Part shown: positions 14,404-35,280 of the stretch, one piece after another
Layout: the number at the start of each line of letters is the position of its first letter
Numbering within the stretch: position 1 is the stretch's first letter
Source of the DNA: Beijerinckiaceae bacterium
GTDB taxonomy: Bacteria > Pseudomonadota > Alphaproteobacteria > Rhizobiales > Beijerinckiaceae
Assembly (NCBI GenBank): GCA_947453205.1
Contig: CANGFT010000030.1
Coordinates: forward strand, 1 to 47,066
Direction: 5' to 3'
Length of the DNA stretch: 47,066 bases
Program-made: the position numbers and the translations under genes
The notes under the pieces: generated by a model
Database searches by the model: none
The model's input: only the letters and a program-made list of their open reading frames with translations
Told to the model about the DNA's origin: nothing

Positions 14404-16194
14404 ATGAGGCAGTCTAGCAGCAAGAGCCGTTCAAAATCCATTCGCGCGCTTGGATGTTCCGCCGCCGGCCTTTTGCTCGCGCTGGGCGGCGCGGCGCTGG
14501 CGCAGGACTTCAAGCCGGTGTCGCGGGAAACGCTGATGAATCCGGATCCTGCGGATTGGCTGATGATCAACCGCACCTATGATGAGCAAAGGTTCAGCCC
14601 GCTCGACCAGATCAACAAAAGCAATGTGCGGGGCCTGCGCATGGCCTGGTCGCGCGGCCTGCCGGCGGGCACGCAGGAATCGACCCCGATCGTCTACAAC
14701 GGGATCATGTATTCCTTCCGCCCCGGCGCCGGAATCATTGCGCTGGACGCCACGACCGGCGACCAGATCTGGGAATATACGCGCAATTACCCCCGCGACA
14801 TGGCCGACGCCATCGGCGGGCCCGCGACGGCGCGCAGCAAGAGCCTCGCCATCTGGGAGGACATGATCTACTACGACGCGCCCGATGGCTTCATCATCGC
14901 GCTGGACGCGAAAACCGGCAAATTGCGCTGGGAGACCAAGGCGCATGATTACAAGGACAAAACGCAACATACGGGCGGCGTGATCGTCGCTGAAGGCAAG
15001 GTCATCTCCAACCGCACCTGCGAGACGCGCGTCGGCTGCTTCATCTCCGCCCATGACGCCAGGACCGGCAAGGAAGTCTGGAAATTCTACACCACCGCCG
15101 CGGCCGGCGAACCAGGCGGCGATTCATGGGGCAAGCTGGAGACCGAAAAGCGCGTCGCCAGCTCCTGGGGCCTGCCAGGCTCCTATGATCCGGCGCGCAA
15201 ACTTGTTTACTGGGCGATCTCGAACCCCAAGCCCTATACGCGCCTGTCTCGCCATGGTTCGGCCGACGCGATCAGCAAGACGTCGCCCGCCGACCTCTAC
15301 AGTAATACGACCGTGGCGCTCGACGTCGAAACGGGCAAGCTGAAATGGCATTATCAGCACCTGCCCGGCGATGATTGGGACGCCGACCATATCCATGAGC
15401 GCACCCTCGTGCGCGCGCCGTTCAATCCGGACCCCAAGTCGGTGAAATGGATCAATCCGAAGATCCCGCGCGGGCAGGAGCGCGACATGGTGATCGCCGT
15501 GGGCGAGGCGGGCGGCATCTTTTCGCTGGACCGCGACACCGGCCAGTTCCTGTGGGCATCGCCCTTCCCCTATGACGTACCGGAGTTCAACATCTCCGAC
15601 ATCGACGTCGAAACGGGGCGGGTGCACATCAACTGGGACAAGATCTTCAAGAAGGACGGGGATCGCTCCATCGTCTGCTACCACAATGTCCGCAGCTTCT
15701 GGTCGACCGCCTATCATCCCGGCAAGAAGGCGCTTTATGTGCCGTTCAACGACAACTGTCTGGACATGACCGCCAACGCCAAGAACCCGCAGGGCTTTGG
15801 GCCGCGCAACGGCATCCTTCGCCCCGGCGCCGACCTCAACGCCTATATGGGCATGGCGCGCATCGACCTTTCCACCGGAGAGATGAAGCGCATCTACTCC
15901 CAGGGGACGCCCGGCAACGGCTCGGCGCTCGTCACGGCTGGCGATCTTCTGTTCTGGGGCGACATGGACCGACGCTTCCGCGCCTTCGACGCGGACACGG
16001 GCGAAGTGCTCTGGGAGCAGCTCGTGGGCGGCATCGTTCAGACCAGCACGATCACCTATTCGGTGAAGGGCAAGCAATATGTCGCCATCTATACGGGCGA
16101 CGCCCAATCCGGCACGGCCGGTCCCCTGCAGGTGGCGAAGGAGACGCGCCCGCCGCGTGCGCATAACGCGATCTACGTGTTCGCCCTGCCCTGA
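14404..16194 (+). CDS. PQQ-dependent alcohol dehydrogenase-type quinoprotein
   Basis: A 596-residue periplasmic quinoprotein. Residues 1-34 are a signal peptide with an Arg/Lys-rich start and ALAQ end. The rest shows the eight-bladed propeller with repeated W-docking motifs (ALDATTGDQIWEY, ALDAKTGKLRWET, AHDARTGKEVWKF, AFDADTGEVLWEQ). The active-site segment VALDVETGKLKWHYQHLPGD, followed by DWD, is at residues 304-326. Asp307 is the likely catalytic base and the residue two further on is Glu309. I see no vicinal Cys-Cys pair of the classical methanol dehydrogenase kind; Cys206 and Cys212 are separated. The family oxidises primary alcohols or similar substrates using PQQ plus Ca or a lanthanide; which metal and substrate apply here is not clear. 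Cytochrome c is divergent; no PQQ synthesis genes are present. A hairpin follows the stop. Confidence 0.92.
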   Translation: MRQSSSKSRSKSIRALGCSAAGLLLALGGAALAQDFKPVSRETLMNPDPADWLMINRTYDEQRFSPLDQINKSNVRGLRMAWSRGLPAGTQESTPIVYNGIMYSFRPGAGIIALDATTGDQIWEYTRNYPRDMADAIGGPATARSKSLAIWEDMIYYDAPDGFIIALDAKTGKLRWETKAHDYKDKTQHTGGVIVAEGKVISNRTCETRVGCFISAHDARTGKEVWKFYTTAAAGEPGGDSWGKLETEKRVASSWGLPGSYDPARKLVYWAISNPKPYTRLSRHGSADAISKTSPADLYSNTTVALDVETGKLKWHYQHLPGDDWDADHIHERTLVRAPFNPDPKSVKWINPKIPRGQERDMVIAVGEAGGIFSLDRDTGQFLWASPFPYDVPEFNISDIDVETGRVHINWDKIFKKDGDRSIVCYHNVRSFWSTAYHPGKKALYVPFNDNCLDMTANAKNPQGFGPRNGILRPGADLNAYMGMARIDLSTGEMKRIYSQGTPGNGSALVTAGDLLFWGDMDRRFRAFDADTGEVLWEQLVGGIVQTSTITYSVKGKQYVAIYTGDAQSGTAGPLQVAKETRPPRAHNAIYVFALP

Positions 16195-16205
16195 GGGTTG
16201 TCGAA

Positions 16206-16233
16206 AACAAGCCCGCGCAAAGGCGGGCTTGTT
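16206..16233. terminator. Hairpin between convergent genes
   Basis: A perfect 11-bp stem (AACAAGCCCGC / GCGGGCTTGTT) with a 6-base loop lies between the PQQ dehydrogenase stop (16194) and the leftward amidohydrolase stop (16272). On the minus strand it is followed by a short T run. It could serve both genes. Confidence 0.7.
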
Positions 16234-16271
16234 CCGGGGGCGAAGGATGGGACTGACGGACTGAAGGCGGC

Positions 16272-17270
16272 TCAGGCCACCTTCAGCTTCAGCAACCTGT
16301 CGGCATTGCCATGGGCGATCTTCGCGCGGTCGGCTGGCGAGAGCGACAGGCTGTCGAGAAATTCGCGCGCGACATTGTTGGCGCTGAAGGGATAGTCGAC
16401 CGAGAACATGATGCGGTCGGCGCCGAAGGTCTGCATCAGCATGAGGAAGGACGGCAGGCTGTAGAAGCCGCTCGTCGTCACATGGACCTGATCGAGGATG
16501 GTCTGCGCGGGATGACGCTGGAGGAACTTCGGCACGGACCCCGAGAAGCTCTCTTCGAAACGCTCGAGCATGGCGGGCAGCCCCTCGCCCTGATGGCCGA
16601 TGATGATCTGCAGCTTCGGGTGGCGGTCGAGGGCGCCGGACAGGGCGAGGCGGACCACATGAACCGCCGTCTCCATGTGCCAGCCATAACCGGCGCGGGC
16701 GAAGATCGTCGGCAGCGGGCCGGGCAGTCCGCCGTAATAGGCGTCGCGGACGACCTGCGGGGGAATGCCCGGATGGATGTAGATCGGCACATCCAGCGCC
16801 TCGGCGCGGGCCAGCACCGGCTCGAACATGGGATCATCCAGAAACTTGCCGTCCGTCGTGCCATTGACCATGCAGCCGTGAAAGCCGAGCTTCGTCACGC
16901 AACGCTCCAGCTCGTCGGCGGCGGCCTCCGGCGCGGTGAGCGGCAGGTGGGCGAAGCCAGCGTAGCGATCCGGCCGTCTGGCGATCTCGGCCGCCAAAGC
17001 GTCGTTCAACTCCCGCGCGAAGGCCGGGCCCTCGGCGGGCGGCAGAAGATCGGCGCCGGGGCCGGACGGGCCCATGACCTGCATGCTGACGCCCGACTCA
17101 TCCAGCGACTGGATGCGCTTCTCGCCAAAGTCCTTCAACCGCTCATCCACATCAGGCCGCGCGGAGGGCGCGTCCGGCGGGGGGTAGCCGCGCTTGACCA
17201 CGAGCGCCGGATCGATGCGGCGCTGGAGCTCGGGAAATGTGAAGTGTTCTTCAAGGGCGACGATGCGCAT
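16272..17270 (-). CDS. Amidohydrolase-2 family, LigW / gamma-resorcylate decarboxylase-like
   Basis: A 332-residue cytoplasmic metal enzyme. It begins VALEEHF, with Glu7-x-His9 in place of the usual H-x-H, as in gamma-resorcylate decarboxylase and 5-carboxyvanillate decarboxylase LigW. Other matching marks are IYIHPGIP (His166), HMETAVHVVRLALSG, IIIGHQGEGLP (His226), TTSGFYS and RIMFSVDYPF (Asp292). These residues would bind the divalent metal and the aromatic carboxylate. Non-oxidative decarboxylation of a hydroxybenzoate-type acid is the best guess. A hydrolase role in the same superfamily remains possible. AAGGTGG precedes the ATG. The gene is divergent from an FAD hydroxylase 173 bp away, a pairing that suits a decarboxylate-then-hydroxylate aromatic route (inference). 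Confidence 0.88.
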   Translation of the reverse strand: MRIVALEEHFTFPELQRRIDPALVVKRGYPPPDAPSARPDVDERLKDFGEKRIQSLDESGVSMQVMGPSGPGADLLPPAEGPAFARELNDALAAEIARRPDRYAGFAHLPLTAPEAAADELERCVTKLGFHGCMVNGTTDGKFLDDPMFEPVLARAEALDVPIYIHPGIPPQVVRDAYYGGLPGPLPTIFARAGYGWHMETAVHVVRLALSGALDRHPKLQIIIGHQGEGLPAMLERFEESFSGSVPKFLQRHPAQTILDQVHVTTSGFYSLPSFLMLMQTFGADRIMFSVDYPFSANNVAREFLDSLSLSPADRAKIAHGNADRLLKLKVA

Positions 17271-17443
17271 GTTTCCACCTTCGTTTTATCGTGCTGTTGA
17301 TCCGCGCAGGGAATCCGATGCAGAGGTTAGATCATCAGGGGTCAGCGCGCCATGGCCGGGGCAGGCACTGGCGCGGCGCCTTTGATCCCGGCCGATTCGC
17401 CCCTATAAGCGCCGGGTAGTTGCAGCCTTCAAGTGAAAGTGCG

Positions 17444-19045
17444 ATGCGGATGGACCAGCAAGAGGCGGATGTAGTCATCATTGGCGGCGGCCCTGTCGGC
17501 ATGGGCCTCGCCATCGAACTCGGCCAGCGCGGGATCAACTGCGTCGTGATTGAACGACACCTCACGCCCCAGCCGATCCCCAAGGGCCAGAACCTCACCC
17601 AGCGCACCATGGAGCATTTCCATGTCTGGGGCGTGGAGGAGGCGGTGCGGGCGGCCTCGCCAATCCCCGTGGACTTCGGGATCGGCGGGCTGACCGCCTA
17701 TGGCACGCTGCTCGGCCCCTACCATTACGACTGGTACCAGCGCGTGATCGTGCGGCCCTTCTACTTCCGCGACAACGAGCGCCTGCCCCAATACGACACG
17801 GAAGCCGCCCTGTGGGCGCGGGTGGCGCAACTGCCGGGGGTCACGGCGCTCTATGGCTGGACCGCGCAGGACGTGGCGCAGGATGAAGCAGGCGTGACGA
17901 TCAGCCTGCTTTCGGCTGAGGGCGAGACGCGCAAGCTGCGGGCGAAATATGCCGTTGGCTGCGACGGCGCCCGCTCGCTCGTGCGCGAACAGGCGGGGAT
18001 CACGCAGACCTCCGACGATCACGAGACGCGCATGGCGCTGCTCGTCTTCCGCTCGAAGCGGCTGAACGAGCTGCTCGCCCATTTCAAGGGCAAGTCCTTC
18101 TTCAATGTGCTGCATCCCGAACTTGACGGCTACTGGCGCTTCTTCGGGCGGGTCGACACAGGCGAGACCTGGTTCTTTCACGCCCCCGTGCCGGCTGGCA
18201 CGACGCGCGAGAATTTCGATTTCCACGCCTATCTCGAAGACGTCGTGGGCGCGCCCTTCGACTGCGCCTTCCAGCACATCGGCTTCTGGGATCTGCGCGT
18301 GGCGGTGGCGGACAGCTATGGCGCGGGACGCCTCTTCATCGCGGGCGACGCGGCCCATAGCCATCCCCCCTATGGGGGCTATGGCGTCAACACCGGCCTT
18401 GAGGACGCGCGCAACCTCGGCTGGAAACTGGCGGCGACCCTGCAGGGCTGGGCGGGGAGCCGCCTGCTTGAAAGCTACAGCGAGGAGCGTCAGCCCGTCT
18501 TCGTCTCGACGGCGCGCGACTTCATCGTGAATTTCATCGAGGCGGACAGGGCCTTCCTGCGCGCCCATGATCCCGCGCGCGACAAGGCAGACTTCGAACA
18601 GGCCTGGGCGGCCCGCGCGTCAGGGGTGAGCGAGGAGATCCGCAGCTTCGCGCCCAATTACGAGAGCTCGCCTGTGGTGGTGGGATCGGCAGGCGGCCCC
18701 ACGGGCGCCGTGGGCGACCACAGCTTCAAGGCCCGGGCGGGCCACCATCTGGCGCCGCAGCTCCTCTCGAACGGGCGCAATGTGTTCGAGGAGCTGGGCG
18801 CAGGCTTCACCCTGCTGGCCTTCGATGCTGTTGACGCTCATGTCGCCGCTTTCGAGGCGGCGGCGAAAGCGCAGGGCGTTCCGCTGAAAGTGCTGCGCGA
18901 CACATGCGCGGACGGGCGCAGCGCCTATGAAGCGCGGCTTGTGCTCGTGCGCCCGGACGCTTTCGTCGCTTTCGCGGGGGACGCGCCGGTCCCGGACGCC
19001 GCAACGATCATCGCTTCCGCGATCGGCGGCGGCGCCGGCGCCTAG
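17444..19045 (+). CDS. FAD-dependent aromatic-ring-type monooxygenase
   Basis: About 533 residues from the ATG at 17444; another ATG two codons later (17450) is equally possible. A TTG at 17420 would add eight residues without support. The fold is the class A flavoprotein hydroxylase type: dinucleotide motif VVIIGGGPVGMGLAIEL (residues 10-26), the DG motif GCDGARSLVREQAG, and the second FAD motif LFIAGDAAHSHPP followed by GVNTGLEDARNLGWKLA. A C-terminal thioredoxin-like tail is typical of the phenol and 3-hydroxyphenylpropionate hydroxylase group. Members add one oxygen atom to phenolic rings using NAD(P)H. The substrate here is unknown. The gene ends in a 3-bp overlap with the stop of the convergent livF gene, with no room for a terminator between them. 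Confidence 0.88.
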   Translation: MRMDQQEADVVIIGGGPVGMGLAIELGQRGINCVVIERHLTPQPIPKGQNLTQRTMEHFHVWGVEEAVRAASPIPVDFGIGGLTAYGTLLGPYHYDWYQRVIVRPFYFRDNERLPQYDTEAALWARVAQLPGVTALYGWTAQDVAQDEAGVTISLLSAEGETRKLRAKYAVGCDGARSLVREQAGITQTSDDHETRMALLVFRSKRLNELLAHFKGKSFFNVLHPELDGYWRFFGRVDTGETWFFHAPVPAGTTRENFDFHAYLEDVVGAPFDCAFQHIGFWDLRVAVADSYGAGRLFIAGDAAHSHPPYGGYGVNTGLEDARNLGWKLAATLQGWAGSRLLESYSEERQPVFVSTARDFIVNFIEADRAFLRAHDPARDKADFEQAWAARASGVSEEIRSFAPNYESSPVVVGSAGGPTGAVGDHSFKARAGHHLAPQLLSNGRNVFEELGAGFTLLAFDAVDAHVAAFEAAAKAQGVPLKVLRDTCADGRSAYEARLVLVRPDAFVAFAGDAPVPDAATIIASAIGGGAGA

Positions 19046-25054: not shown

Positions 25055-26797
25055 TCAGACGCTGATCTGGTGGCGCCGCGTCAACAGATGGAAGATCACG
25101 CTGACGACGGTCATCAGCGCGATCCAGAGCATGCCCATGGCCGCGAGCTCCGTGACCTGCCCGTTCTGCCACAGCTCGAACAGGGTGACCGACATGATCT
25201 CCGATCCCGGCCCCACCAGCAGCAACGGCAGGGACACCGCCTGCACGGAGAGCAGGAAGATCAGCAGCCAGGATGAGACCAGCGTCGTCGCGAGCAGCGG
25301 CACGAGCACCCGCAGGAACAGCTTGGTCTTGCTGGCGCCGGCGATCGAGGCGGCCTCCTCGAGATCCGAATGGATCGTCATCACCCCCGCAAAGGCGTAG
25401 CGCATGCCATAGGGCAGATAGCGCACCGAGGAGGCGATGATGATGGAGAGCAAGGTGCCGTAGAGCGGCAGGGACATGTTCACGAAGATGTCGAGGAAAG
25501 CGACGCTGAGAATGAGCGCGGGGAAAACGAGCGGCACGGCTGCGATCTGGTCGATGAGCCAGGCGCCGGGGCTGCGGCGCACCACAAGCCAGGCGCAAAG
25601 CGCCGTGAATGGCACAATCGCCGTCGCCGTCATGGCGCCAAGGACGAGCGTGTTGACGATGGAGTCGCGGAAGGATCCGGGGCGGAACAGCGCCTCGTAA
25701 TTCTCAAGGGACATGCGGCCAAAGGCCTCCAGCGACACGCCGCCATAGAAGGGCTGGAAGGACGTGAAGGCCAGCATGGCGACGGGAACGACGGTCACCA
25801 TGAGGAAAAGCAGAACCAGCACGGCGGAGGTCAGAAAACGCCAGCTCCCGAGGTCTATGACGCGCGGGCGAAAGCCCTTGCCGGTGATCGTCTGATAGCG
25901 CTTGGCGTCTTGGGACAGGCGGTTCTGCCAGAGCATCAGTCCAAAGAGGATCACGACGAGACAGACCGAATAGGCGCCAGCCTCCCCGTAATTGGGCGCG
26001 CCCACGCGGCGGGAGCTCTGGAAGATCATCGTGGTGATGACGCTGACATTGCCCGCAAGGCCGACAAGCGCGGGCACCTCGAAGGATTCGAAGGCCTTGA
26101 TGAAGATCAGCAGCGTCAAACCGCACAGCGCAGGCGCCGCCATGCGCAGGGTGACCCTGATGAAGGCGCCCAGAGGGCTCGCGCCCGACATCATCGCCGC
26201 TTCCTCGAACGAGGCGTCGGTCGAGCGCAGGATCGAGGACATCAGCAGGAAGGTGAGGGGCACGAAGCCGACGCCCTCGATCAGCATCATGCCCCAGAGC
26301 GAATAGACATCGAGCGCCTGCGGCTGATGCGACAGGCTCTCGATCAGATCATTCACGGGACCGGAGCGGCCCAGCAACAAAAGCCATGCGACGACATAGA
26401 GCACATGGGGCACGCCGAGCGAAATGATCGCGGCGAGAAAGGCCAGCTTGCGGCCCGGCGTGTTCGTCCGCTCGACGATGAGCGCCTGCACCGTGCCGAT
26501 GAAGATCGCGATCACCGCCGATCCGCAGGAGTAGATCAGCGTATTGAACAGGCTCGGCAGAAAGAAACGGCCTGACACAAGCTGTTCGTAAAAACGCAGG
26601 GTGAAGGCGCCTGACGAACCGTCAGGCAGCGTCTCGTGCAGACTGGCGTTGACCAGAAAGATGACCGGCGGCGCAACGGCGAAGAGAAGCACCGCCACCA
26701 GAACCATCACGAGCGGCGACAGGCGCAGGCCTTGCTCAGGCCACAGGAGACGCCAAGGCGAAGCCGCAGGCAGGGTCGGTTCGGCTTGGGTCGTCAC
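25055..26797 (-). CDS. Iron-type ABC importer, fused double permease
   Basis: A 580-residue inner-membrane protein starting at a GTG. It contains two complete permease halves. The first has the ATPase-contact loop EEAAMMSGASPLGAFIRVTL (about residues 205-225), the second EEAASIAGASKTKLFLRVLV (about 480-500). Two fused halves are typical of the FbpB/SfuB group that works with ferric or 2-aminoethylphosphonate-type receptors. It follows the receptor gene after 22 bp, so they form one unit. No partner ATPase lies next to them or elsewhere in the window, apart from the LIV ATPases. A mini-frame of eight codons overlaps the receptor's stop just upstream. Confidence 0.9.
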   Translation of the reverse strand: MTTQAEPTLPAASPWRLLWPEQGLRLSPLVMVLVAVLLFAVAPPVIFLVNASLHETLPDGSSGAFTLRFYEQLVSGRFFLPSLFNTLIYSCGSAVIAIFIGTVQALIVERTNTPGRKLAFLAAIISLGVPHVLYVVAWLLLLGRSGPVNDLIESLSHQPQALDVYSLWGMMLIEGVGFVPLTFLLMSSILRSTDASFEEAAMMSGASPLGAFIRVTLRMAAPALCGLTLLIFIKAFESFEVPALVGLAGNVSVITTMIFQSSRRVGAPNYGEAGAYSVCLVVILFGLMLWQNRLSQDAKRYQTITGKGFRPRVIDLGSWRFLTSAVLVLLFLMVTVVPVAMLAFTSFQPFYGGVSLEAFGRMSLENYEALFRPGSFRDSIVNTLVLGAMTATAIVPFTALCAWLVVRRSPGAWLIDQIAAVPLVFPALILSVAFLDIFVNMSLPLYGTLLSIIIASSVRYLPYGMRYAFAGVMTIHSDLEEAASIAGASKTKLFLRVLVPLLATTLVSSWLLIFLLSVQAVSLPLLLVGPGSEIMSVTLFELWQNGQVTELAAMGMLWIALMTVVSVIFHLLTRRHQISV

Positions 26798-26819
26798 GAG
26801 CGCGCGCCTTCAGTCAGCA

Positions 26820-27911
26820 TCATCGAAACAGCTCGTCGAAGATCTTCTGGGAGCTGTCGTTGTAACGGTTGAGCTGCTCGGAGCTCACGAAAAGCTCCTT
26901 CACGCCCGCCGTCTTCGGCACGACCGGCGCCAATGTCTCGAGCGGCGCGACATCCGGCCGGACGGGGAAATATTCCGCCTTCGAGAAGATCGACTGCCCT
27001 TCTTGCGAGAGAATGAAATCGGCGAGCAGCATGGCGGCATAGGGATGGCGCACGCCCCTGGGCACGATCATCGTGCCGGCGGTGGAGGCCGTGGGCTCCA
27101 GCAAATGCGTATTGACCGGCGCGCCCTTGGCTTTGCTGATGAGCGGATGATGCGCGAATATGTTGAGCGCGATGGGAAACTCTCCGGCGATGACGCGGTC
27201 GACCAAGGTGCGGGCGCTGCCAGAGCCGAAATTGATCACCTTCTGCTGGGCGAGCTTCTCGAAATATTCGCGCGCCTTGTCCTCGCCGCGCGCGATGCGG
27301 ATCGTGGTGAGGAACAGCGGCGTGCCGCTGGAGGTGCCGATGCGCCAGGCGAGCTTGCCCTTCCAGCGGGGATCGAGCAGATCGTCATAGGTTCTGGGCG
27401 CCTGATCGGCGGGCACGAGCTTCGTGTTGTAAGCGATGCCGAAATAGCTGACGCGTGTGCTCACCCAGTTGCCGCGGGGGTCGCGGTACATTTCGGGCAA
27501 GGCGTCGGTCGCGGGCGTGGAGAAGGGAACCGTGAGCCCGGCCTCGACCGCCAGTTCGCCGACGCCCGTGCCCTCGACAAGATCGGCGACGACATTCTTC
27601 GCGCGCACTTCGGCGGACAGCTTGGCCACGATCTCTTCGGTGTCGCCGCGCCAATAGGTGAGCTTGATGAAGGGATATTTCTTCATGAAGGCCTCGGCCA
27701 TGGGCCGAAGCGCCTGATTGACGATGGCCGCCGAGTAAATGACGACCTGCCCTTCCTTGCGTGCGCCCTCCAGCAGAAGCTGCTCGCGGTTCTCTGCGCG
27801 GCTCGTCAGGATGTCCTGCGCGAAGGCCGCGGATCCCGCGACCGACAGAACGACTGCGGCGCAGAGTGACGACAGGCGGCCAGCGCCCGAACGGGAAGAC
27901 TTGATGAACAT
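26820..27911 (-). CDS. Iron-type ABC importer substrate-binding protein
   Basis: A 363-residue receptor with a signal peptide (residues 1-31, ending SAAFAQ). The mature part has EGARKEGQVVIYSAA, FMKKYPFIKLTYWRGDTEE and, later, PRTYDDLLDPRWKGKLAW, all marks of the family 1 solute-binding proteins of the AfuA/FbpA kind. The family binds ferric ion, but also phosphonates, thiamine, polyamines and small carboxylates. I cannot confirm the paired tyrosines used for ferric iron, so the ligand is open. Its neighbours (a monooxygenase, a Mo enzyme and an enolase-superfamily enzyme) make an organic ligand more likely than iron. AAGGAGAG precedes the ATG. Confidence 0.88.
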   Translation of the reverse strand: MFIKSSRSGAGRLSSLCAAVVLSVAGSAAFAQDILTSRAENREQLLLEGARKEGQVVIYSAAIVNQALRPMAEAFMKKYPFIKLTYWRGDTEEIVAKLSAEVRAKNVVADLVEGTGVGELAVEAGLTVPFSTPATDALPEMYRDPRGNWVSTRVSYFGIAYNTKLVPADQAPRTYDDLLDPRWKGKLAWRIGTSSGTPLFLTTIRIARGEDKAREYFEKLAQQKVINFGSGSARTLVDRVIAGEFPIALNIFAHHPLISKAKGAPVNTHLLEPTASTAGTMIVPRGVRHPYAAMLLADFILSQEGQSIFSKAEYFPVRPDVAPLETLAPVVPKTAGVKELFVSSEQLNRYNDSSQKIFDELFR

Positions 27912-27937
27912 GCCGGATCTCTCCTTGGCCGCGCAGG

Positions 27938-29017
27938 TCAGGTCGCCGAGGGGCCCTTCCAGCGCACGCCGGAACCGGGGCCCTTGGGCAGCTTCAACTC
28001 GCCGTTCTCGACTTCGATCCCATCGAAAGGATCGTCCAGCAGACGGGCGAATTCGCCCAGTTCGCAGGCGTAATCGACGCCCGGCAGCGCGCAGGCCAGA
28101 TGCAGCGCATGGGCGGCCAGAAGCCGCGAGCCCACCGCCGCGCCCAGCCGGTAGGAGACGCCGCCCTGCTCGCAGAGCCTTGCGGCGGCGATCGTGTTGC
28201 GGATGCCGCCGAGCTTGGGAACCTTGAGGCTCACCGCGTCCACCGCGCGGCGGGTGACGAGTTGATAGACCTCGGCCAGCGATCCCGCGGCCTCATCGGC
28301 CTCGACCTTGACCGGAACCGTGTGGGTGACGAGGGCGAGCCCTTCGAAATCTTCCGCAGGCACGGGCTGTTCGACCAGATCGATCCGGTGTTCGGCCATG
28401 CGGTTGATCGCGATGATGGCGTTCTTGACGGTATAGGCCTGGTTGGCGTCGATCGTCAGGTTCACATCATCGCCGACTTCCTTGCGGATGGCGGCGACGC
28501 GCGCCACGTCCAGATCCACTTCGCCATGGACCTTGATCTTGAGATAGCGGTAGCCCTCGTCCACGAGCTTGCGCGCCTGCTTGGCCATCTCCTGCGGCGT
28601 CTTGATCGCGAGGATGCGCAGAATGGGCAGGCTGGCGCGCATCTTGCCACCGAAGAGTTGGCAGAGCGGAACGCCCAGCCGCTTGGCGAGCAATTCATGG
28701 AGCGCGCAATCAATGGCGGCCTTGGCCTGCGGCGCGCCGCGCATGGCGCGGTCGAGGGCGGCGCCGATCGCTTCGATGTCGTCGGCGTCGCGGCCCATCA
28801 CATGCGGGCGGAAATAGGCGAGCTCCGCCTCCAACGAGCCGGGAATGGCCCCCATATGCGGCGTCGCCGAAGCATAGCCGAAACCTTCGTTGCCCTGTTC
28901 ATCGACAAGCCGCAGGATCGAGCCTTCCGTCACCGGGCTCGCGCCAAGGGCGAACTTCCAGGTGGGGTCTTCCTTGCGCATGACATTGGGATAGGATTCG
29001 TAACCGCTGATGATCAA
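27938..29017 (-). CDS. Enolase-superfamily enzyme (muconate cycloisomerase / epimerase-like)
   Basis: About 359 residues from a TTG at 29017, which has GGGAGG six bases upstream (29024-29029). An ATG at 29047 with no ribosome site would add ten residues. The barrel carries the muconate-lactonising subgroup residues: K-x-K in YLKIKVHG, then metal ligands in NLTIDANQAY, LVEQPVP and KVEADEAAG, and the second base Lys in SLKVPKLGG. These enzymes take a proton next to a carboxylate; outcomes include cycloisomerisation, racemisation or epimerisation. It is third in a leftward five-gene set and lies 27 bp before the binding-protein gene, so the imported compound may be its substrate or precursor. 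Confidence 0.88.
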   Translation of the reverse strand: MIISGYESYPNVMRKEDPTWKFALGASPVTEGSILRLVDEQGNEGFGYASATPHMGAIPGSLEAELAYFRPHVMGRDADDIEAIGAALDRAMRGAPQAKAAIDCALHELLAKRLGVPLCQLFGGKMRASLPILRILAIKTPQEMAKQARKLVDEGYRYLKIKVHGEVDLDVARVAAIRKEVGDDVNLTIDANQAYTVKNAIIAINRMAEHRIDLVEQPVPAEDFEGLALVTHTVPVKVEADEAAGSLAEVYQLVTRRAVDAVSLKVPKLGGIRNTIAAARLCEQGGVSYRLGAAVGSRLLAAHALHLACALPGVDYACELGEFARLLDDPFDGIEVENGELKLPKGPGSGVRWKGPSAT

Positions 29018-29023
29018 GGACAA

Positions 29024-29029
29024 CCTCCC
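29024..29029 (-). promoter_or_regulatory. Shine-Dalgarno site deciding a TTG start
   Basis: GGGAGG on the minus strand lies six bases before the TTG at 29017. It favours the shorter form of the enolase-superfamily protein over the ATG at 29047. Confidence 0.7.
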
Positions 29030-29121
29030 GACTTTTGCTTGACGCATTATTCATATGCTGCGCGCGCTATGGCAAGCCTCCCGCAGCGCAAAGACCGGGC
29101 GAACACGAAGTATTCAACCCC

Positions 29122-30411
29122 TCAGGCGCCGGGCTTCGGCAAGCCCAGATGCTCCCGCAACGTGGCGCCCGCATAGGCCTTGCGAAACACGCCGCGCCTC
29201 TGGAGCTCGGGGACCACGAGCTCCACGAAATCCCGCAGGCCGTTCGGCATCATGGCGGGCATGACGTTGAAGCCGTCCGCGCCCGAGGCCTCGAACCATT
29301 CGTGCAGGGAATCGGCGACCTCCATGGCTGAGCCGATCAATTGCCGATGCCCCTTGGACACGAGCAGGCGCTCATAGACCTGGCGCACGCTGAGGTCATC
29401 GCGCCGCGCCGTCTCCACCATGCCGACGGCCCGGCTTTGGGGCAACTGCGCTATGTCGATGGGCGGCAATGGGCCATCGACATCGACGCCGGTGAGATCG
29501 ATTCCCAGCGTGCGCGACAGTCCGCTGAGCCCAGCTTGCGGGTGGATCAGCGCCTGCAGCTGCGCATATTTGTCCTGCGCCTCCTGCCGGGTCCGCCCCA
29601 CCACGGGCATCACGCCCGGCATGACCAGAGCATGGCCCGGATCGCGGCCGAAGGAGATGACGCGCGCCTTGATGTCGGCGTAGAAAGCCTGCGCGACATC
29701 GAGTTCGCGCTGAATGGTGAAGATCACTTCGGCATACTTGGCGGCGAGCCCCTTGCCGTCCTCCGAAGAACCGGCCTGCACCAGCACAGGGTGGCCCTGG
29801 GGGGCGCGCGGCAGGGTCAAGGGCCCGCGCACGCTGAATTCGGCGCCGTCATGATCGAGTTGATGCAGCTTGCTCGAATCGAAGAAAAGGCCCCGCTCCT
29901 TGTCGATGAGCAGGGCGTCGTCTTCCCAGCTGTCCCAGAGGCCGCGCACGACCTCCACGAATTCATGGGCCTTGCGGTAGCGGTCGGTGAGATGGCGATG
30001 CGCCTCGCGCCCGAAATTGTAGGCTTCCACGGTCGAGGACGAGGTGACGATGTTCCAGCCTGCGCGCCCCTTGCTCAGATGATCCAGCGAAGAGAATTTG
30101 CGCGCGACGTTATAGGGCTCGTTGAAAGACGTCGTTGCCGTCGCCACTAGGCCGATCCGCTTCGTGGCCATGGCCAGCGCCGACAGAAGCGTCAAGGGCT
30201 CAAAACGGAAGGAGTCCTGACGCCCGCCATCGCGGGTCGTCGAATAGACATCCGCGACGAACATCATGTCGAAGCAGCCGCGCTCGGCGAGTTGCGCCAC
30301 CGCGATGTAGGAGTCGATGCTGAAGCCTGCGGGATAGGCGTCGGGGTGGCGCCAGGCCGCCATATGATGGCCGCCAGGCGCGAGGAACAGGCCAAGCTTC
30401 ATCTGACGCAT
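29122..30411 (-). CDS. NtaA/SnaA/DszA-family flavin-dependent monooxygenase
   Basis: A 429-residue luciferase-like monooxygenase of the long nitrilotriacetate / dibenzothiophene-sulfone type. It starts MRQMKLGLFLAPGGHHMAAW, then FDMMFVADVYSTTRDG, FSSLDHLSKGRAGWNIVTSS, PVLVQAGSSEDGKGLAAKYA and, near the end, DGFNVMPAMMPNGLRDFVEL. The order matches the family well. These enzymes need FMNH2 from a separate reductase and cleave C-N or C-S bonds. The ATG is 8 bp after the stop of the molybdenum dehydrogenase gene, and the ribosome site (TAGGAG) overlaps that stop, so the two are translated together. Confidence 0.9.
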   Translation of the reverse strand: MRQMKLGLFLAPGGHHMAAWRHPDAYPAGFSIDSYIAVAQLAERGCFDMMFVADVYSTTRDGGRQDSFRFEPLTLLSALAMATKRIGLVATATTSFNEPYNVARKFSSLDHLSKGRAGWNIVTSSSTVEAYNFGREAHRHLTDRYRKAHEFVEVVRGLWDSWEDDALLIDKERGLFFDSSKLHQLDHDGAEFSVRGPLTLPRAPQGHPVLVQAGSSEDGKGLAAKYAEVIFTIQRELDVAQAFYADIKARVISFGRDPGHALVMPGVMPVVGRTRQEAQDKYAQLQALIHPQAGLSGLSRTLGIDLTGVDVDGPLPPIDIAQLPQSRAVGMVETARRDDLSVRQVYERLLVSKGHRQLIGSAMEVADSLHEWFEASGADGFNVMPAMMPNGLRDFVELVVPELQRRGVFRKAYAGATLREHLGLPKPGA

Positions 30412-30419
30412 GACGGCTC

Positions 30420-32675
30420 CTAGGCCATGCCCGCCTTGACGCGCTCAGGCGTCAGGGGCGCGCGGCGCAACCGGACGCCCGTCGCGTCGTAGATGGCGTT
30501 GGCGATGGCGGCGGCGGTCGGGCGCGACGCGCCTTCGCCTGCCCCCGTGGGCGCGACCTCGGGCCGGTCGATCAGCACGATGTCGATAGACTCAGGGGCA
30601 TCCCTGATGTCAGCGATGGGATAGGTGCTCCAGTCGACGCTGGTCACCATCTTGTCGTCAAAACGCACCTCTTCAAAGAGGGCGCGGCTGGTTGACTGCA
30701 CCACATTGCCCTCAATGGTCGAACGCAGCAGGCCGGGATTGATGATCTGGCCGCAATCATGCGCCACGGTCCATTTGCGCACCCAGACCCGGCCTGTGAC
30801 GCGGTGGACCTCAACATCCGCCACCATGGCGACGCGGGTGCCTGAGCGTGCGGCATAGGCCATGCCCTGCCCCAGGAAGACATCGCCGCGCGCCTGCCGA
30901 CGCGCGGCCTTGCGGGGCTGCCAGCCCGCCTTCTCCGCCGCCGCCTTGATGACCGCAAGATCCCTGGGATTCTCGACGTTCTTGAGGCGGAACTCGAGGG
31001 GGTCCATGTCCAGATGATAGGCAAGCTCGTCCATGAAGGACTCGACGGCGAAATGCACCTGCGGGCCGCCGGGATCGCGCATATGCGCTGTGCGCAGCGG
31101 CGAGGCGCGGTCGAGCAGCGGCGGAATGATGTTGGAGATCTTGAGATAGGCGGGAAAGCCATAGCTCTCATCCGGCCCGCCGAAGATGATCGTCGGCTTC
31201 AGCGGCGCGCCAAGCAGGTGTCCTGCGAGCGTATGGGATGGATCGCCCTCGTTGTTGAAGGCGTCGCGCTTGGAGAAGACCTTCGACTCGAAATACCAGG
31301 CGGTGACCTTGTTGTCGGCGTCGAGCGCGACGCGGGAGACATGGACCGAGGCCGGCGCCTTGGGATCCCAGCCCGTGCCTTCGTGACGCATGCTCTGCAC
31401 ACGCACGGGCCTGCCGACTGCGCGCGACAGAACGGCCGCATCCATGACGACATCGCCGGAGTCGTTGCGCCCGTAGGAGCCCGGCCCCGTCAAGGAGACG
31501 CAGACCACCTTGTCCGGCGGCAGACCCAGCAATTTCGCCACGCCGTCACGGGCGTAATGGGGCTTCTGCGAGCCGGACCACACCCGGGCGCCATCGGGGC
31601 GGGCGTCCACCAGGCCGCTGGCCGGGCCCATGGAGGCGTGGGACTGGAAGGGCCATTCATAGGCGGCTTCGAACACCTTCGCCGCCTTGGCGAAGGGTTC
31701 GTCGATCTTGCCCTTCTCCTTGTCCACATCGCGCTTCAGCGTCGGGGCGGCGCGGATATGGTCGTGGATCCCTTCGGAGCCGGGGAATGGCGGCTTCACA
31801 TCAGACCAGACGACCTTCAATTCGCGGGCGGCCTTCACCGCATGCCATTCGCGGGGCGCGACGACGCCGATGAAGTCTTTCTCGCGCACCACCCGCACGC
31901 CGGGAATTTTCGCAATGGAGCTTTCGTCCACCGACACGGGGACCGCGCCTGCGACCGGCGGCCGGATGACCCGCCCATGGACCATGCCCTCAACCTTGGC
32001 GTCGACATTGTAAATGTGCTGGCCGAGGATCTTCTCCGCGACATCGCGGCGCTTGGGGCTGGTCTTGCCGACGATTTTATAATCTTTCGGCGACTTCGGC
32101 TTGGTCTTGCCCTCGACCATGAGGTCGCTGCCGACCTGCTTGTTCCAGGTGAGCAGCGTGTCGAAATGCTGTCCGCCCACAAGCGCGGCATAGGTGACCC
32201 GTTTGGCAGGATCGCCCTTGACGCTGACCACGCCGTCATCGACGCTCAACTGCTCTGCGGGAACGCCGAGCTTTTCAGCCGCCATGCCCACAAGCACGCC
32301 GCGCGCCTCAGCAGCAGCCGCGCGCATGGCGGCGCCGCCTTTCCAGATGCCGGTCGAGCCGGAGGCGCCGCCCATGTTGAAGGTGACGTCCGTATGGCCT
32401 TGCACGATGCTGACCTTTTCAACCGGCAGGTCGAGCTCCTCGGCGATCATCTGCGCCCAGCCGACATCGGTGCCCTGCCCCATGTCGATCTTGCCGATCC
32501 AGCCGACCGCAGACCCATCGGCGTTGATGCTGATGTAGGTCGCGAGCCGTTCGGGGTTCAGCGGCAGGCGCGAGGCCACGACGCCCGCCTGCGCCCGCGC
32601 GCCCGGCAAGGCGACGCCAACCGTCAAGGCGCCGGCGGCGGCGAGAAAGGAACGGCGGCTGGTCTGAATGGTCAT
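30420..32675 (-). CDS. Tat-exported molybdopterin dehydrogenase large subunit (IorB-like)
   Basis: A 751-residue protein of the xanthine dehydrogenase family, like the large subunit of isoquinoline 1-oxidoreductase. The ATG at 32675 has GGGAGG five bases upstream and gives a twin-arginine signal (TSRRSFLAAAG, residues 5-15, ending ARAQA). Cofactor-binding marks are KIDMGQGTDVGWAQMIAEEL, GASGSTGIWKGGAAMRAAA, RDPGGPQVHFAVESFMDELA and the C-terminal GAGEGASRPTAAAIANAI, with the likely catalytic Glu. There are few Cys and no [2Fe-2S] domain. The usual small iron-sulfur partner is not adjacent. First gene of a leftward set with two enzymes and an importer. Export suggests oxidation of a heteroaromatic or aldehyde in the periplasm. 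Confidence 0.9.
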   Translation of the reverse strand: MTIQTSRRSFLAAAGALTVGVALPGARAQAGVVASRLPLNPERLATYISINADGSAVGWIGKIDMGQGTDVGWAQMIAEELDLPVEKVSIVQGHTDVTFNMGGASGSTGIWKGGAAMRAAAAEARGVLVGMAAEKLGVPAEQLSVDDGVVSVKGDPAKRVTYAALVGGQHFDTLLTWNKQVGSDLMVEGKTKPKSPKDYKIVGKTSPKRRDVAEKILGQHIYNVDAKVEGMVHGRVIRPPVAGAVPVSVDESSIAKIPGVRVVREKDFIGVVAPREWHAVKAARELKVVWSDVKPPFPGSEGIHDHIRAAPTLKRDVDKEKGKIDEPFAKAAKVFEAAYEWPFQSHASMGPASGLVDARPDGARVWSGSQKPHYARDGVAKLLGLPPDKVVCVSLTGPGSYGRNDSGDVVMDAAVLSRAVGRPVRVQSMRHEGTGWDPKAPASVHVSRVALDADNKVTAWYFESKVFSKRDAFNNEGDPSHTLAGHLLGAPLKPTIIFGGPDESYGFPAYLKISNIIPPLLDRASPLRTAHMRDPGGPQVHFAVESFMDELAYHLDMDPLEFRLKNVENPRDLAVIKAAAEKAGWQPRKAARRQARGDVFLGQGMAYAARSGTRVAMVADVEVHRVTGRVWVRKWTVAHDCGQIINPGLLRSTIEGNVVQSTSRALFEEVRFDDKMVTSVDWSTYPIADIRDAPESIDIVLIDRPEVAPTGAGEGASRPTAAAIANAIYDATGVRLRRAPLTPERVKAGMA

Positions 32676-32834
32676 CAAAACCTCCCTTTGGCCTGTCGAT
32701 GGCGTCCGACCGGCGCCTGTTTGCCCGAAACATGCCACGACCGCAGGCGGGACGCCAGAGCCATGGACCCGATTGCAATCCGTCCGGCGAGGGAATAGCC
32801 TTGGCTCCAATTAAAAGGCGAAGGGGGATACGCC

Positions 32835-34820
32835 ATGGGCAAAAAGACTTCCGACCAGGCCGGGCTGGACCGCCGCGGCTTTCTCACCGGCGTGGCCGTA
32901 GCAGGCGGCGCGGGGCTGAGCGGCCCGGCGCAAGCGCAGTCAAACCAGACGCGAATGGCGCAGGCGCAGACCGCCCCGGCGCCCGCAGCGCGCCCCAAGG
33001 CCCCGCTCCCCACCGCAGCCCAGACCGCTGCCGAGAATGAGACGCCCGCCCATGTGGAGGCGCTGACGACCGAGAAGACCGGCTCGGACTTCATGGTCGA
33101 CGTCTGCAAGACCCTGAACATTGATTTCCTGGCCTCCTGTCCCGGCTCCACCTTCCGCGCGCTGCAGGAATCCTTCATCAACTACGGCCAGAACAAAAAG
33201 CCGGAATGGCTGACCTGCCTGCATGAGGAAGTCTCGGTCGGCATGGCCCATGGCTATGCGAAAGTGGCGGGCAAGCCGATGGCCGCCATGCTGCATGGCA
33301 CCGTCGGAACCCAGCACGCCGCCATGGGCATCTACAACGCCTATTGCGACCGCGTGCCCATGATCCTCTTCACCGCCAGCGCGGGCCCGGTCGAGGACCG
33401 CCGGCCCGGCGTCGAATGGATGCATTCGGTGCAGGATGGCGCCGCCACCGTCCGCGACTTCATCAAATGGGACGACTATCCCTGGTCGCTGCAGAGCTTC
33501 GCCGAATCCACGGTTCGCGGCTATGCGCTGGCCTGCGCCGAGCCGCCCGGACCGATCCTCATCACCGCAGATGGAAAGTTGCAGGAATCGGAGCTGTCAA
33601 AGCAAGAGGAAGCAAAGCTCAGGATCCCCAAGCTCACCCGGGGCACGCAGACCGTGGGCGATCCCGCCGCCTTGAAGGAAGCGGCGAAGATGCTGGTGGC
33701 CGCCGAGAACCCGGTGATCCTTGTCGACCGCTATGCGCGCTCCCAGCAGGGCGTGGACGATCTCGTTCGGCTGGCCGAGCTTCTGCAGGCGCCTGTGGTG
33801 GACAAGCAGAGCCGCATGAACTTCCCCAGCCAGCATTATCTCTATCAGAACGCCCGCGGCGGGGTGCTGGTCGCGCAGGCCGACTGCATCCTCTCCCTTG
33901 AGCCCGTCGATCTCTTCGGGCAGCTCAACCGCGTGCGCGACCAGATCGAACGCACCTGGCGCAGCACGTCCAAGCCGACCGCCAAGGTCATCAGCCTGTC
34001 CACCCATGATCTCCTGATGAAGGCCAATTATCAGGACTTCCAGCGCTACAGCGCCGCCGATCTCGCGATCACGGCGGATGCGCAGGCCACCATGCCCTAC
34101 CTCATCGAGGCCGTGGAGCGTGAGATCGGCGACCGCAAGTCCGCTTTCGCGGCGCGTGGCCAGAAGATGCGCGATGCGCAGAAAGCCTTCGCCGCCCGCG
34201 CCCATGCCGATGGCGCGCTTGGCTGGGATTCGAGCCCCATCAGCGGCGCGCGCATGTTCGCTGAGCTCTGGAATCAGGTGAAGAACGAAGACTGGGCCTT
34301 CATGTCGCCCAACAATTACAGCGGCAACTGGCAGCATCGTCTTTGGCCGATCGAGAAGCACTATCAATTTATCGGCAACTCCGGCGGCTCGGGCGTCGGT
34401 TATGAGCCGGTGGCGGCGCTTGGCGCGGCGCTGGCCCATCGCGAGGTCGGGGGCCGCCTGCCCATCGCTATCGTCGGCGACGGCAACTTCAACATGGCGC
34501 CCAGCGTCATGTGGACCGCCGCCCACCACAAGATCCCCTTCCTCATGATCATCCAGAACAACCGCGCCTACCATCAGGAGGTCATGCATATCCAGCGCAT
34601 GGCCAACCGGCATAATCGCGGCATCGAAAGCGGGGTCATCGGAACCGAGATCACCAATCCGAACATCGACTATGCGGGCCTCGCCAGGAGCTATGGCGCG
34701 GTCGGCATCGGTCCGATCAGCGATCCCAAGGAATTGGGCGAAGCCATCAAGAAGGGCGTCGCCGCCGTCAAGGCGGGCGAACCCGTCCTGATCGACGTCA
34801 TCATGCAGCCGCGCGGTTAA
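32835..34820 (+). CDS. Tat-exported thiamine-diphosphate enzyme (acetolactate synthase / pyruvate oxidase fold)
   Basis: A 661-residue ThDP enzyme with a twin-arginine signal (LDRRGFLTGVAVAGG, residues 11-25, ending AQAQ) and a Gln/Ala/Pro linker to about residue 70. Three domains follow: pyrimidine-binding (about 80-250) with the cofactor-activating Glu in CLHEEVSVGMAHGYA (Glu131 or 132), a central domain (about 270-420), and a pyrophosphate-binding domain with GDGNFN at 548-553 and NN at 575-576, which is the standard GDG-x(24-25)-NN metal/ThDP motif. Relatives are normally cytoplasmic. The export signal and the cytochrome c gene 12 bp downstream suggest periplasmic oxidative decarboxylation of a 2-oxo acid with electrons to the cytochrome (inference). 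Divergent from the Tat-exported Mo enzyme, 159 bp apart. Confidence 0.92.
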   Translation: MGKKTSDQAGLDRRGFLTGVAVAGGAGLSGPAQAQSNQTRMAQAQTAPAPAARPKAPLPTAAQTAAENETPAHVEALTTEKTGSDFMVDVCKTLNIDFLASCPGSTFRALQESFINYGQNKKPEWLTCLHEEVSVGMAHGYAKVAGKPMAAMLHGTVGTQHAAMGIYNAYCDRVPMILFTASAGPVEDRRPGVEWMHSVQDGAATVRDFIKWDDYPWSLQSFAESTVRGYALACAEPPGPILITADGKLQESELSKQEEAKLRIPKLTRGTQTVGDPAALKEAAKMLVAAENPVILVDRYARSQQGVDDLVRLAELLQAPVVDKQSRMNFPSQHYLYQNARGGVLVAQADCILSLEPVDLFGQLNRVRDQIERTWRSTSKPTAKVISLSTHDLLMKANYQDFQRYSAADLAITADAQATMPYLIEAVEREIGDRKSAFAARGQKMRDAQKAFAARAHADGALGWDSSPISGARMFAELWNQVKNEDWAFMSPNNYSGNWQHRLWPIEKHYQFIGNSGGSGVGYEPVAALGAALAHREVGGRLPIAIVGDGNFNMAPSVMWTAAHHKIPFLMIIQNNRAYHQEVMHIQRMANRHNRGIESGVIGTEITNPNIDYAGLARSYGAVGIGPISDPKELGEAIKKGVAAVKAGEPVLIDVIMQPRG

Positions 34821-34832
34821 GGGAGAGCTCAC

Positions 34833-35204
34833 ATGAAGATTTTCGCAATCACCCTGCTCGCCGGCCTCTCGCTCTGCGCCAACAGCGCGCTGGCCCAGCA
34901 AGCCGCCGCTCCCGCTGGCGACATCGAGAATGGCAAGAAGCACTATACGACTGACGGCTGCTACCAGTGCCACGGAACGTTGGGCAATGGCGCCGCCCTC
35001 ACAGGGCCGAAGCTCGCCAATACGGAGCTTCCTTTCGACGCTTTTCTGATGCAGTTGCGACACCCAGCGAATGACATGCCTCCCTATGAGGCGAAGATCA
35101 TTTCGGACAAGACGGTGGCCGACATCTACGCCTATATGAAGAGCCTTCCGAAATCGCCGGACGCCAAGAGCCTGCCGTTGCTCACGGGCATGGGCGTAAA
35201 ATAA
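34833..35204 (+). CDS. Small periplasmic c-type cytochrome, partner of ThDP enzyme
   Basis: A 123-residue class I cytochrome c. Signal peptide at 1-21 (ending ALAQ), haem motif C-Y-Q-C-H at 43-47, and probable axial Met in NDMPPYE (Met82). The gene starts 12 bp after the ThDP enzyme stop with a good AGGGAGAG site, so the pair is co-transcribed and very likely acts together. A second possible partner is the divergent Mo enzyme, whose relatives also use cytochrome c. The C-terminus (GMGVK) lies in a 16-base triplicated stretch, followed by a terminator. Confidence 0.9.
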   Translation: MKIFAITLLAGLSLCANSALAQQAAAPAGDIENGKKHYTTDGCYQCHGTLGNGAALTGPKLANTELPFDAFLMQLRHPANDMPPYEAKIISDKTVADIYAYMKSLPKSPDAKSLPLLTGMGVK

Positions 35205-35237
35205 GATGGGCGTAAAATAAAACAGGCGTGAAATAAA
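35190..35237 (+). repeat. Three tandem 16-base units over the cytochrome stop codon
   Basis: Units at 35190-35205, 35206-35221 and 35222-35237 share GGCGTRAAATAA. The first two differ only in their last base. The first contains the stop codon of the cytochrome c gene, so extra copies lie in the 3' untranslated part. Confidence 0.85.
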
Positions 35238-35251
35238 CAAGCTGAACCATG

Positions 35252-35280
35252 AAACCCGCCTGAGCGATCAGGCGGGTTTT
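35252..35280 (+). terminator. Intrinsic terminator after cytochrome c gene
   Basis: A perfect 12-bp stem (AAACCCGCCTGA / TCAGGCGGGTTT) with a GCGA loop ends in TTTT on the plus strand. It lies 48 bp past the cytochrome stop and just before the stop of the convergent Bug gene. Confidence 0.88.

Follow-up and report, generated by a model that had tools for sequence, protein, structure and literature searches.

A thiamine-diphosphate enzyme with a predicted Tat signal and its partner cytochrome c in a Beijerinckiaceae genome and in other bacteria

A 47,066-nucleotide stretch of Beijerinckiaceae DNA (contig CANGFT010000030.1 of assembly GCA_947453205.1, a 4.2-Mb draft genome; here called the window) carries genes for a thiamine-diphosphate (ThDP) enzyme with a twin-arginine translocation (Tat) type signal and, directly behind it, a cytochrome c. 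Comparison with relatives strongly indicates that the two make up a real, conserved, specific and co-inherited module. The function that we favour, with more confidence than doubt, is oxidation of 2-oxo acids (or related carbonyl compounds) in the periplasm by the ThDP enzyme, which would deliver electrons to its cytochrome c. The features of the locus are as follows.

32835..34820, + strand: Tat-type ThDP enzyme, 661 aa, with TPP_enzyme N, M and C domains
32835..32939, + strand: predicted twin-arginine signal peptide, aa 1-35; RR at aa 13-14 (nt 32871-32876), cleavage probably near AQAQ
33225..33227, + strand: codon of the glutamate E131, by alignment the residue that activates ThDP; alignments A1 and A2 show no variation at it
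34476..34580, + strand: ThDP/Mg motif with GDG548-550 and NN575-576, then the family-specific H580 and E582
34833..35204, + strand: monohaem cytochrome c, 123 aa, partner of the ThDP enzyme; PF13442/PF00034
34959..34973, + strand: haem-binding CYQCH of the cytochrome c, aa 43-47
30420..32675, - strand: Tat-type molybdopterin-binding protein, 751 aa; a neighbour outside the conserved module

Conservation of the enzyme-cytochrome pair

The ThDP open reading frame (ORF) has the N-terminus MGKKTSDQAGLDRRGFLTGVAVAGGAGLSGPAQAQ, and PF02776, PF00205 and PF02775 all score over their Pfam cut-offs in it. The cytochrome c gene starts 12 bp past the ThDP stop codon. The gene for the molybdenum (Mo) protein is divergent from the ThDP gene across a gap of 159 bp. 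The original prediction, made from the letters of the window, had described this arrangement, and it is exact to the base. It had also held that the key residues are kept; E131, GDG and NN are present, and the catalytic motifs are apparently intact.

Relatives were collected from GTDB species genomes by catalytic-region patterns (best 80 of 581 confirmed loci) and from plasmids; the relatives compared lie at 42% identity or more, or at 36% or less. Removal of near-copies at 97% identity took 123 rows to 117. There are 104 distinct proteins of the exported type, all at least 42% identical to the window enzyme; the 13 more distant relatives (26-36% identity) include L034, whose frame is interrupted and whose core is empty. 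A cytochrome was scored within 250 bp downstream, at loci with at least 330 bp of sequence. By this measure a cytochrome c gene follows 94 of 102 assessable exported-type genes and none of the 13 distant ones. The prediction had named absence of conserved linkage as its refutation, and the linkage is there. The same association is seen within the window genome, which has 18 PF02776 genes: two encode an RR motif, those two alone have a downstream haem-binding ORF, and the remaining 16 have neither.

The converse also holds. With the window cytochrome as query, 61 genomes near that of the window give 37 matches at E 1e-10; 34 lie directly behind a ThDP match, and another two follow a ThDP end truncated at a contig boundary. 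The exception (G017:C106) is not behind a ThDP gene. The sole exported-type ThDP match in these genomes that has no cytochrome is incomplete: it covers about 240 residues and lies on a different contig of G017. Clustering of neighbours in 103 neighbourhoods, some loci being taken twice, places a ThDP protein in 103 and a cytochrome in 81. The next commonest cluster is a TctC-type receptor, found in 24 of 103, with 15 of them within 4 kb (raw count).

The two families track each other, as judged from correlated distances and from the nearest neighbours of two types of copy. Across 91 pairs the protein distances of ThDP enzyme and cytochrome correlate with r = 0.70, a value inflated by species relatedness; none of 2000 permutations exceeded 0.15. 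Among the 61 genomes, at E 1e-100, the ThDP enzymes fall into type A orthologues (73-96% identical to the window enzyme) and type B paralogues (about 50%), both confined to the same genus; the window genome has one copy of each. In a comparison of 10 type A and 16 type B cytochromes from this genus, all 10 of type A are nearest to another type A. Mean identity is 0.68 within type A (minimum 0.46) and 0.40 between A and B (maximum 0.49); the window genome (G000) and G011 contribute both types. The ThDP tree separates exported from non-exported proteins at forks with Shimodaira-Hasegawa-like approximate likelihood ratio (SH-aLRT) support of 86 and 91, which is under the program's mark of 95. It was built from 116 rows by a quick method, with long-branch warnings, and L034 was left out; L017, L069 and L084 carry the label 'cytosolic' merely because a contig end cuts their N-terminus.

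The cytochrome has a single CYQCH and, by eye, a Sec-like leader. Both CxxCH and a Met at aa 82 are present in all 91 aligned partner cytochromes, as expected of class I cytochromes c; these are the partners of ordinary length, longer ones being left out. Retention of CxxCH and of the axial Met indicates a working redox centre. In a small Acidobacteriota group (L063, L098 and L097) a dihaem cytochrome replaces the monohaem one. Short direct repeats (GGCGTAAAATAA and variants) lie at and after the cytochrome stop codon of the window (35190-35260, + strand), and no fold of this region beats shuffled sequence.

Hosts of the relatives are Alpha-, Beta- and Gammaproteobacteria and Acidobacteriota. 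They include Hyphomicrobiales, Rhodospirillales, Caulobacter, Novosphingobium, Caballeronia, one gammaproteobacterial metagenome-assembled genome (MAG) and many Acidobacteriota, and the system is present in isolates (Bradyrhizobium sp. dw_411, Caulobacter sp. S45 and Caballeronia zhejiangensis). The module is patchy, since of 299 evenly sampled Pseudomonadota genomes, each with its top four candidates scored, the window's own is the only one to pass E 1e-130. Several copies at least 48% identical can occur together: Caulobacter sp. S45 and one Sulfopaludibacter MAG have two each, and a second Sulfopaludibacter MAG has three (signals checked in part). The second Tat-type pair of the window genome (L147, G000:C5:46001-66000) adjoins a queC-like gene (identified by eye; its cluster is in 7/103 neighbourhoods); behind the pair come a TctC-type receptor and an amidohydrolase-like gene. 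In C. zhejiangensis the pair is on the 666-kb plasmid p3 (L118), a few kilobases from aromatic-degradation genes; its cytochrome is a 206-aa dihaem protein.

Export signal and active site of the ThDP enzyme

The N-terminus of the ThDP enzyme reads DRRGFLTG, then a weakly hydrophobic stretch, then AQAQ; it thus has both the RR-x-F-L motif and the AxA-type end of a Tat signal. RR is invariant in the 72 sequences of alignment A2. It is present in all 101 distinct exported-type relatives with a readable N-terminus and in none of the 13 more distant ones. In a database search that scored 7997 candidates, RR lies within the first 90 residues of 117 of the 120 matches listed, out of 7098; the other three start past it. 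Motif, conservation and AxA-like end together point to a Tat-type export signal. Tat transports folded, cofactor-loaded enzymes, and c-type haem is attached in the periplasm; the window genome encodes TatC and CcmH.

The nearest solved relatives of the enzyme are benzoylformate decarboxylases (such as 1bfd and 4q9d), at a low 92.9 bits for the single sequence and 137 bits for a profile. They share the ThDP fold and the active-site Ser, Glu and His, with which S105, E131 and H154 of the window enzyme align; the decarboxylase residues are presumably Ser26, Glu47 and His70. The stretch that contains what we take to be His281 of the decarboxylases aligns unclearly with the window enzyme. Unlike these relatives, the window enzyme has an RR signal, an N-terminal extension of about 80 aa, a paired cytochrome c and the family-specific sequence NNRAYHQEVMH. 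It scores 151.7 bits with the benzoylformate decarboxylase family NF005485 (cut-off 493) and 99.1 bits with the flavin adenine dinucleotide (FAD) type pyruvate oxidase family NF006377 (cut-off 742), both scores falling short. The best curated match, NF006203 / PRK08327 (thiamine pyrophosphate-requiring protein), gives 252 bits, which is also under its cut-off of 456.

In alignment A2, E131, H154, D549, G550, N575 and N576 are invariant and S105 is kept in at least 90% of sequences. The first Gly of GDG varies among paralogues of about 50% identity. At the end of the ThDP motif, H580, E582 and M584 are fixed among exported relatives and not among the non-exported; H580 and E582 have a frequency of 1.00 in 103 exported-type rows and of 0 in 11 non-exported rows. 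E582 stands at what we take to be the site of Glu477 in pyruvate decarboxylases. N398 and Q400 of the exported type stand where most others have Trp and Met. Residues fixed in this way suggest that the active site may have been retuned together with export.

The ThDP gene is under purifying selection. The ratio of nonsynonymous to synonymous substitution rates (dN/dS) is 0.044 and 0.047 against two close relatives (G033 and G028); in the first 80 codons it is 0.056 and 0.045 against two close relatives. Against a third relative (G018) dS is saturated. The cytochrome c gene gives 0.05 and 0.11 against G033 and G028.

The molybdenum neighbour and the rest of the window

The Mo protein has MoCoBD_1 and MoCoBD_2 domains, starts MTIQTSRRSFL (again with an RR motif) and has as its best solved match 8gy3, an aldehyde dehydrogenase large subunit. 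Its group is presumably that of the IorAB / AldFGH type molybdenum hydroxylases, from which the window copy differs in having no adjacent [2Fe-2S] subunit gene. None of the genome's 12 Fer2_2 matches is on the window contig, and two [2Fe-2S] subunits used as tblastn queries gave no match in the window. The genome has six such Mo genes at E 1e-80, of which the other five adjoin a Fer2_2 gene. The window protein might be an orphan subunit; alternatively, it might have a shared partner.

The Mo gene adjoins the pair in three of seven readable type A loci: the window, G028 and G033 have it there, and G018, G011, G026 and G025 do not (contigs of G008, G017 and G015 are cut on the upstream side of the type A locus). 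The G028 and G033 proteins are 91-92% identical to that of the window. Elsewhere in the genus the Mo orthologues are on other contigs or megabases off (in G022, 3.74 Mb versus 1.31 Mb on one contig). A [2Fe-2S] gene is directly upstream of the orthologue in G004, G005, G009, G011, G015, G017, G022, G024, G031 and G035; none is found in the available stretch of G012, G014, G019, G025, G027, G028, G032 and G033. The divergent Mo/ThDP layout thus looks lineage-specific.

In the wider set, a relative of the Mo protein is present in 7 of 103 pair neighbourhoods, three of which are of the window lineage. In an alphaproteobacterial MAG (L106), the ThDP gene is at 6232-8046 and a Mo-like ORF at 8485-10875 (+ strand), 439 bp past the ThDP gene and downstream of the cytochrome; here a Tat-type Mo protein and a ThDP-cytochrome pair are apparently neighbours independently of the window lineage. 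Three further loci (L050, L082 and L087) have a Mo-protein relative 4-8 kb from the pair, and a second cluster, present in 6/103 neighbourhoods, resembles molybdenum hydroxylases by eye. As a general third component the Mo protein was rejected: four of seven orthologous loci are without it, and L106 is one locus in favour. Of the three-gene unit originally predicted, the conserved Tat-type signal and the cytochrome pairing stand, and membership of the Mo protein is mostly unsupported. Nor is there support for a single general route of decarboxylation plus hydroxylation, because the Mo gene mostly lies outside the unit.

Past the Mo gene, window positions 25055-30411 (- strand) encode an NtaA/DmoA-type flavin mononucleotide (FMN) monooxygenase, an enolase-superfamily enzyme, a solute-binding protein and an ATP-binding cassette (ABC) permease; this looks like a catabolic operon. 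A pyrroloquinoline quinone (PQQ) type dehydrogenase beta-propeller protein and an FAD-dependent aromatic hydroxylase are encoded at 14404-19045 (+ strand). No RNA families or tRNAs were found in the window, and promoter and terminator scans of it were uninformative.

Candidate functions and meaning

In the proposed mechanism, the ThDP enzyme would fold and bind ThDP-Mg in the cytoplasm and then be exported by Tat in the folded state. In the periplasm, the ThDP ylide would attack a 2-oxo acid or related carbonyl compound, and loss of CO2 (or C-C cleavage) would leave the enamine (Breslow) intermediate. The co-encoded Met-ligated monohaem cytochrome c could then oxidise the enamine in two one-electron steps and pass the electrons into the respiratory chain. 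Export of the enzyme would make sense on these terms: its acceptor is found nowhere but in the periplasm, and Tat is a pathway for enzymes already folded and loaded with cofactor. No other neighbour approaches the cytochrome in frequency. Direct reduction of the cytochrome by the ThDP enzyme is the simplest reading. There is chemical precedent in the oxidation of ThDP enamines by ferricyanide and in the radical steps of pyruvate:ferredoxin oxidoreductase. Pyruvate oxidases (Lactobacillus POX, E. coli PoxB) likewise oxidise 2-oxo acids with ThDP and pass the electrons on; they rely on FAD, together with O2 or quinone, and act on the cytoplasmic side, whereas the likely acceptor here is a periplasmic cytochrome c.

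Several observations weigh against this oxidase function. The benzoylformate decarboxylases, nearest among solved structures, are non-oxidative. Eight of the 102 loci have no cytochrome within 250 bp (L068, L076, L084, L085, L088, L089, L097 and L111); in L097 a dihaem cytochrome lies about 550 bp past the ThDP gene, L084 encodes a dihaem protein of 396 aa, and the other six show none adjacent. The A/B comparison is the sole correction of the distance correlation for the species tree. No ThDP-cytochrome fusion occurs among 195 candidates that have words in common with the cytochrome (close relatives only), and enzyme and cytochrome show no charge complementarity (r = 0.17, 90 pairs). The exported enzyme could instead be a non-oxidative decarboxylase or lyase that yields periplasmic aldehydes, with the cytochrome serving a separate aldehyde or alcohol dehydrogenase. 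The kinship to benzoylformate decarboxylases, with S105, E131 and H154 at their Ser, Glu and His positions, fits this idea, as does the PQQ-type dehydrogenase elsewhere in the window. However, no dehydrogenase recurs by the pair as the cytochrome does in the neighbour clustering, and the cytochrome is tied to the ThDP gene in 36 of 37 matches; we consider this alternative unlikely.

The fold also includes carboligases, and acetolactate synthase models match the enzyme, all under cut-off. A carboligation or other non-redox reaction, with the cytochrome in a structural or protective role, is nevertheless quite improbable given the CxxCH and axial Met kept throughout the 91 cytochromes. A single periplasmic pathway made up of the ThDP enzyme, the cytochrome and the Mo protein would account for the adjacent genes in the window, G028 and G033, for the RR motifs of both enzymes and for the Mo relative at L106. 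It seems very improbable, since four of the seven readable orthologous loci do without the Mo gene, its orthologues are unlinked and several have a [2Fe-2S] gene of their own, and Mo relatives are found in just 7 of 103 neighbourhoods although such genes are numerous (six in the window genome). The ThDP superfamily is usually cytoplasmic, and the RR motif might be fortuitous. That the enzyme stays in the cytoplasm is barely conceivable, however, when RR is universal in the exported type, absent from all 13 others and present in 117 of the 120 listed matches, and when the partner's haem is attached in the periplasm.

The periplasmic oxidase thus remains the preferred function, and there is a fair chance that the pair represents a new class of enzyme. 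A more specific proposal may be made, tentatively and at slightly less than even chance: that this is an undescribed class of periplasmic ThDP 2-oxo acid/carbonyl:cytochrome c oxidoreductases, in which a single-haem cytochrome oxidises the enamine directly, without FAD or iron-sulphur centres, and that the multiple copies in some soil Acidobacteriota and Hyphomicrobiales are alternative, substrate-specific respiratory inputs. To our knowledge, ThDP enzymes work intracellularly and give their electrons to FAD, lipoamide or ferredoxin. The pair is apparently undescribed in the literature covered: the PMC titles and abstracts listed, among which subscription journals are few and absence is weak evidence, describe no Tat-exported ThDP enzyme or such pair. 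In the Tat-substrate table of PMC3305326, thiamine is mentioned once, for a thiamine-biosynthesis lipoprotein. The idea of periplasmic 2,5-diketogluconate decarboxylation in acetic acid bacteria found no support among the papers listed.

If the oxidase function is true, the pairing of cofactors, in a ThDP enzyme exported by Tat and a cytochrome c dedicated to it, would be new; the two-protein system is small and directly testable. Relatives of the enzyme are annotated, where annotated at all, as 'acetolactate synthase' or 'thiamine pyrophosphate-binding protein', and these proteins would gain a function. The pair would also be a new respiratory entry point in soil bacteria, with electrons fed from outside the inner membrane.

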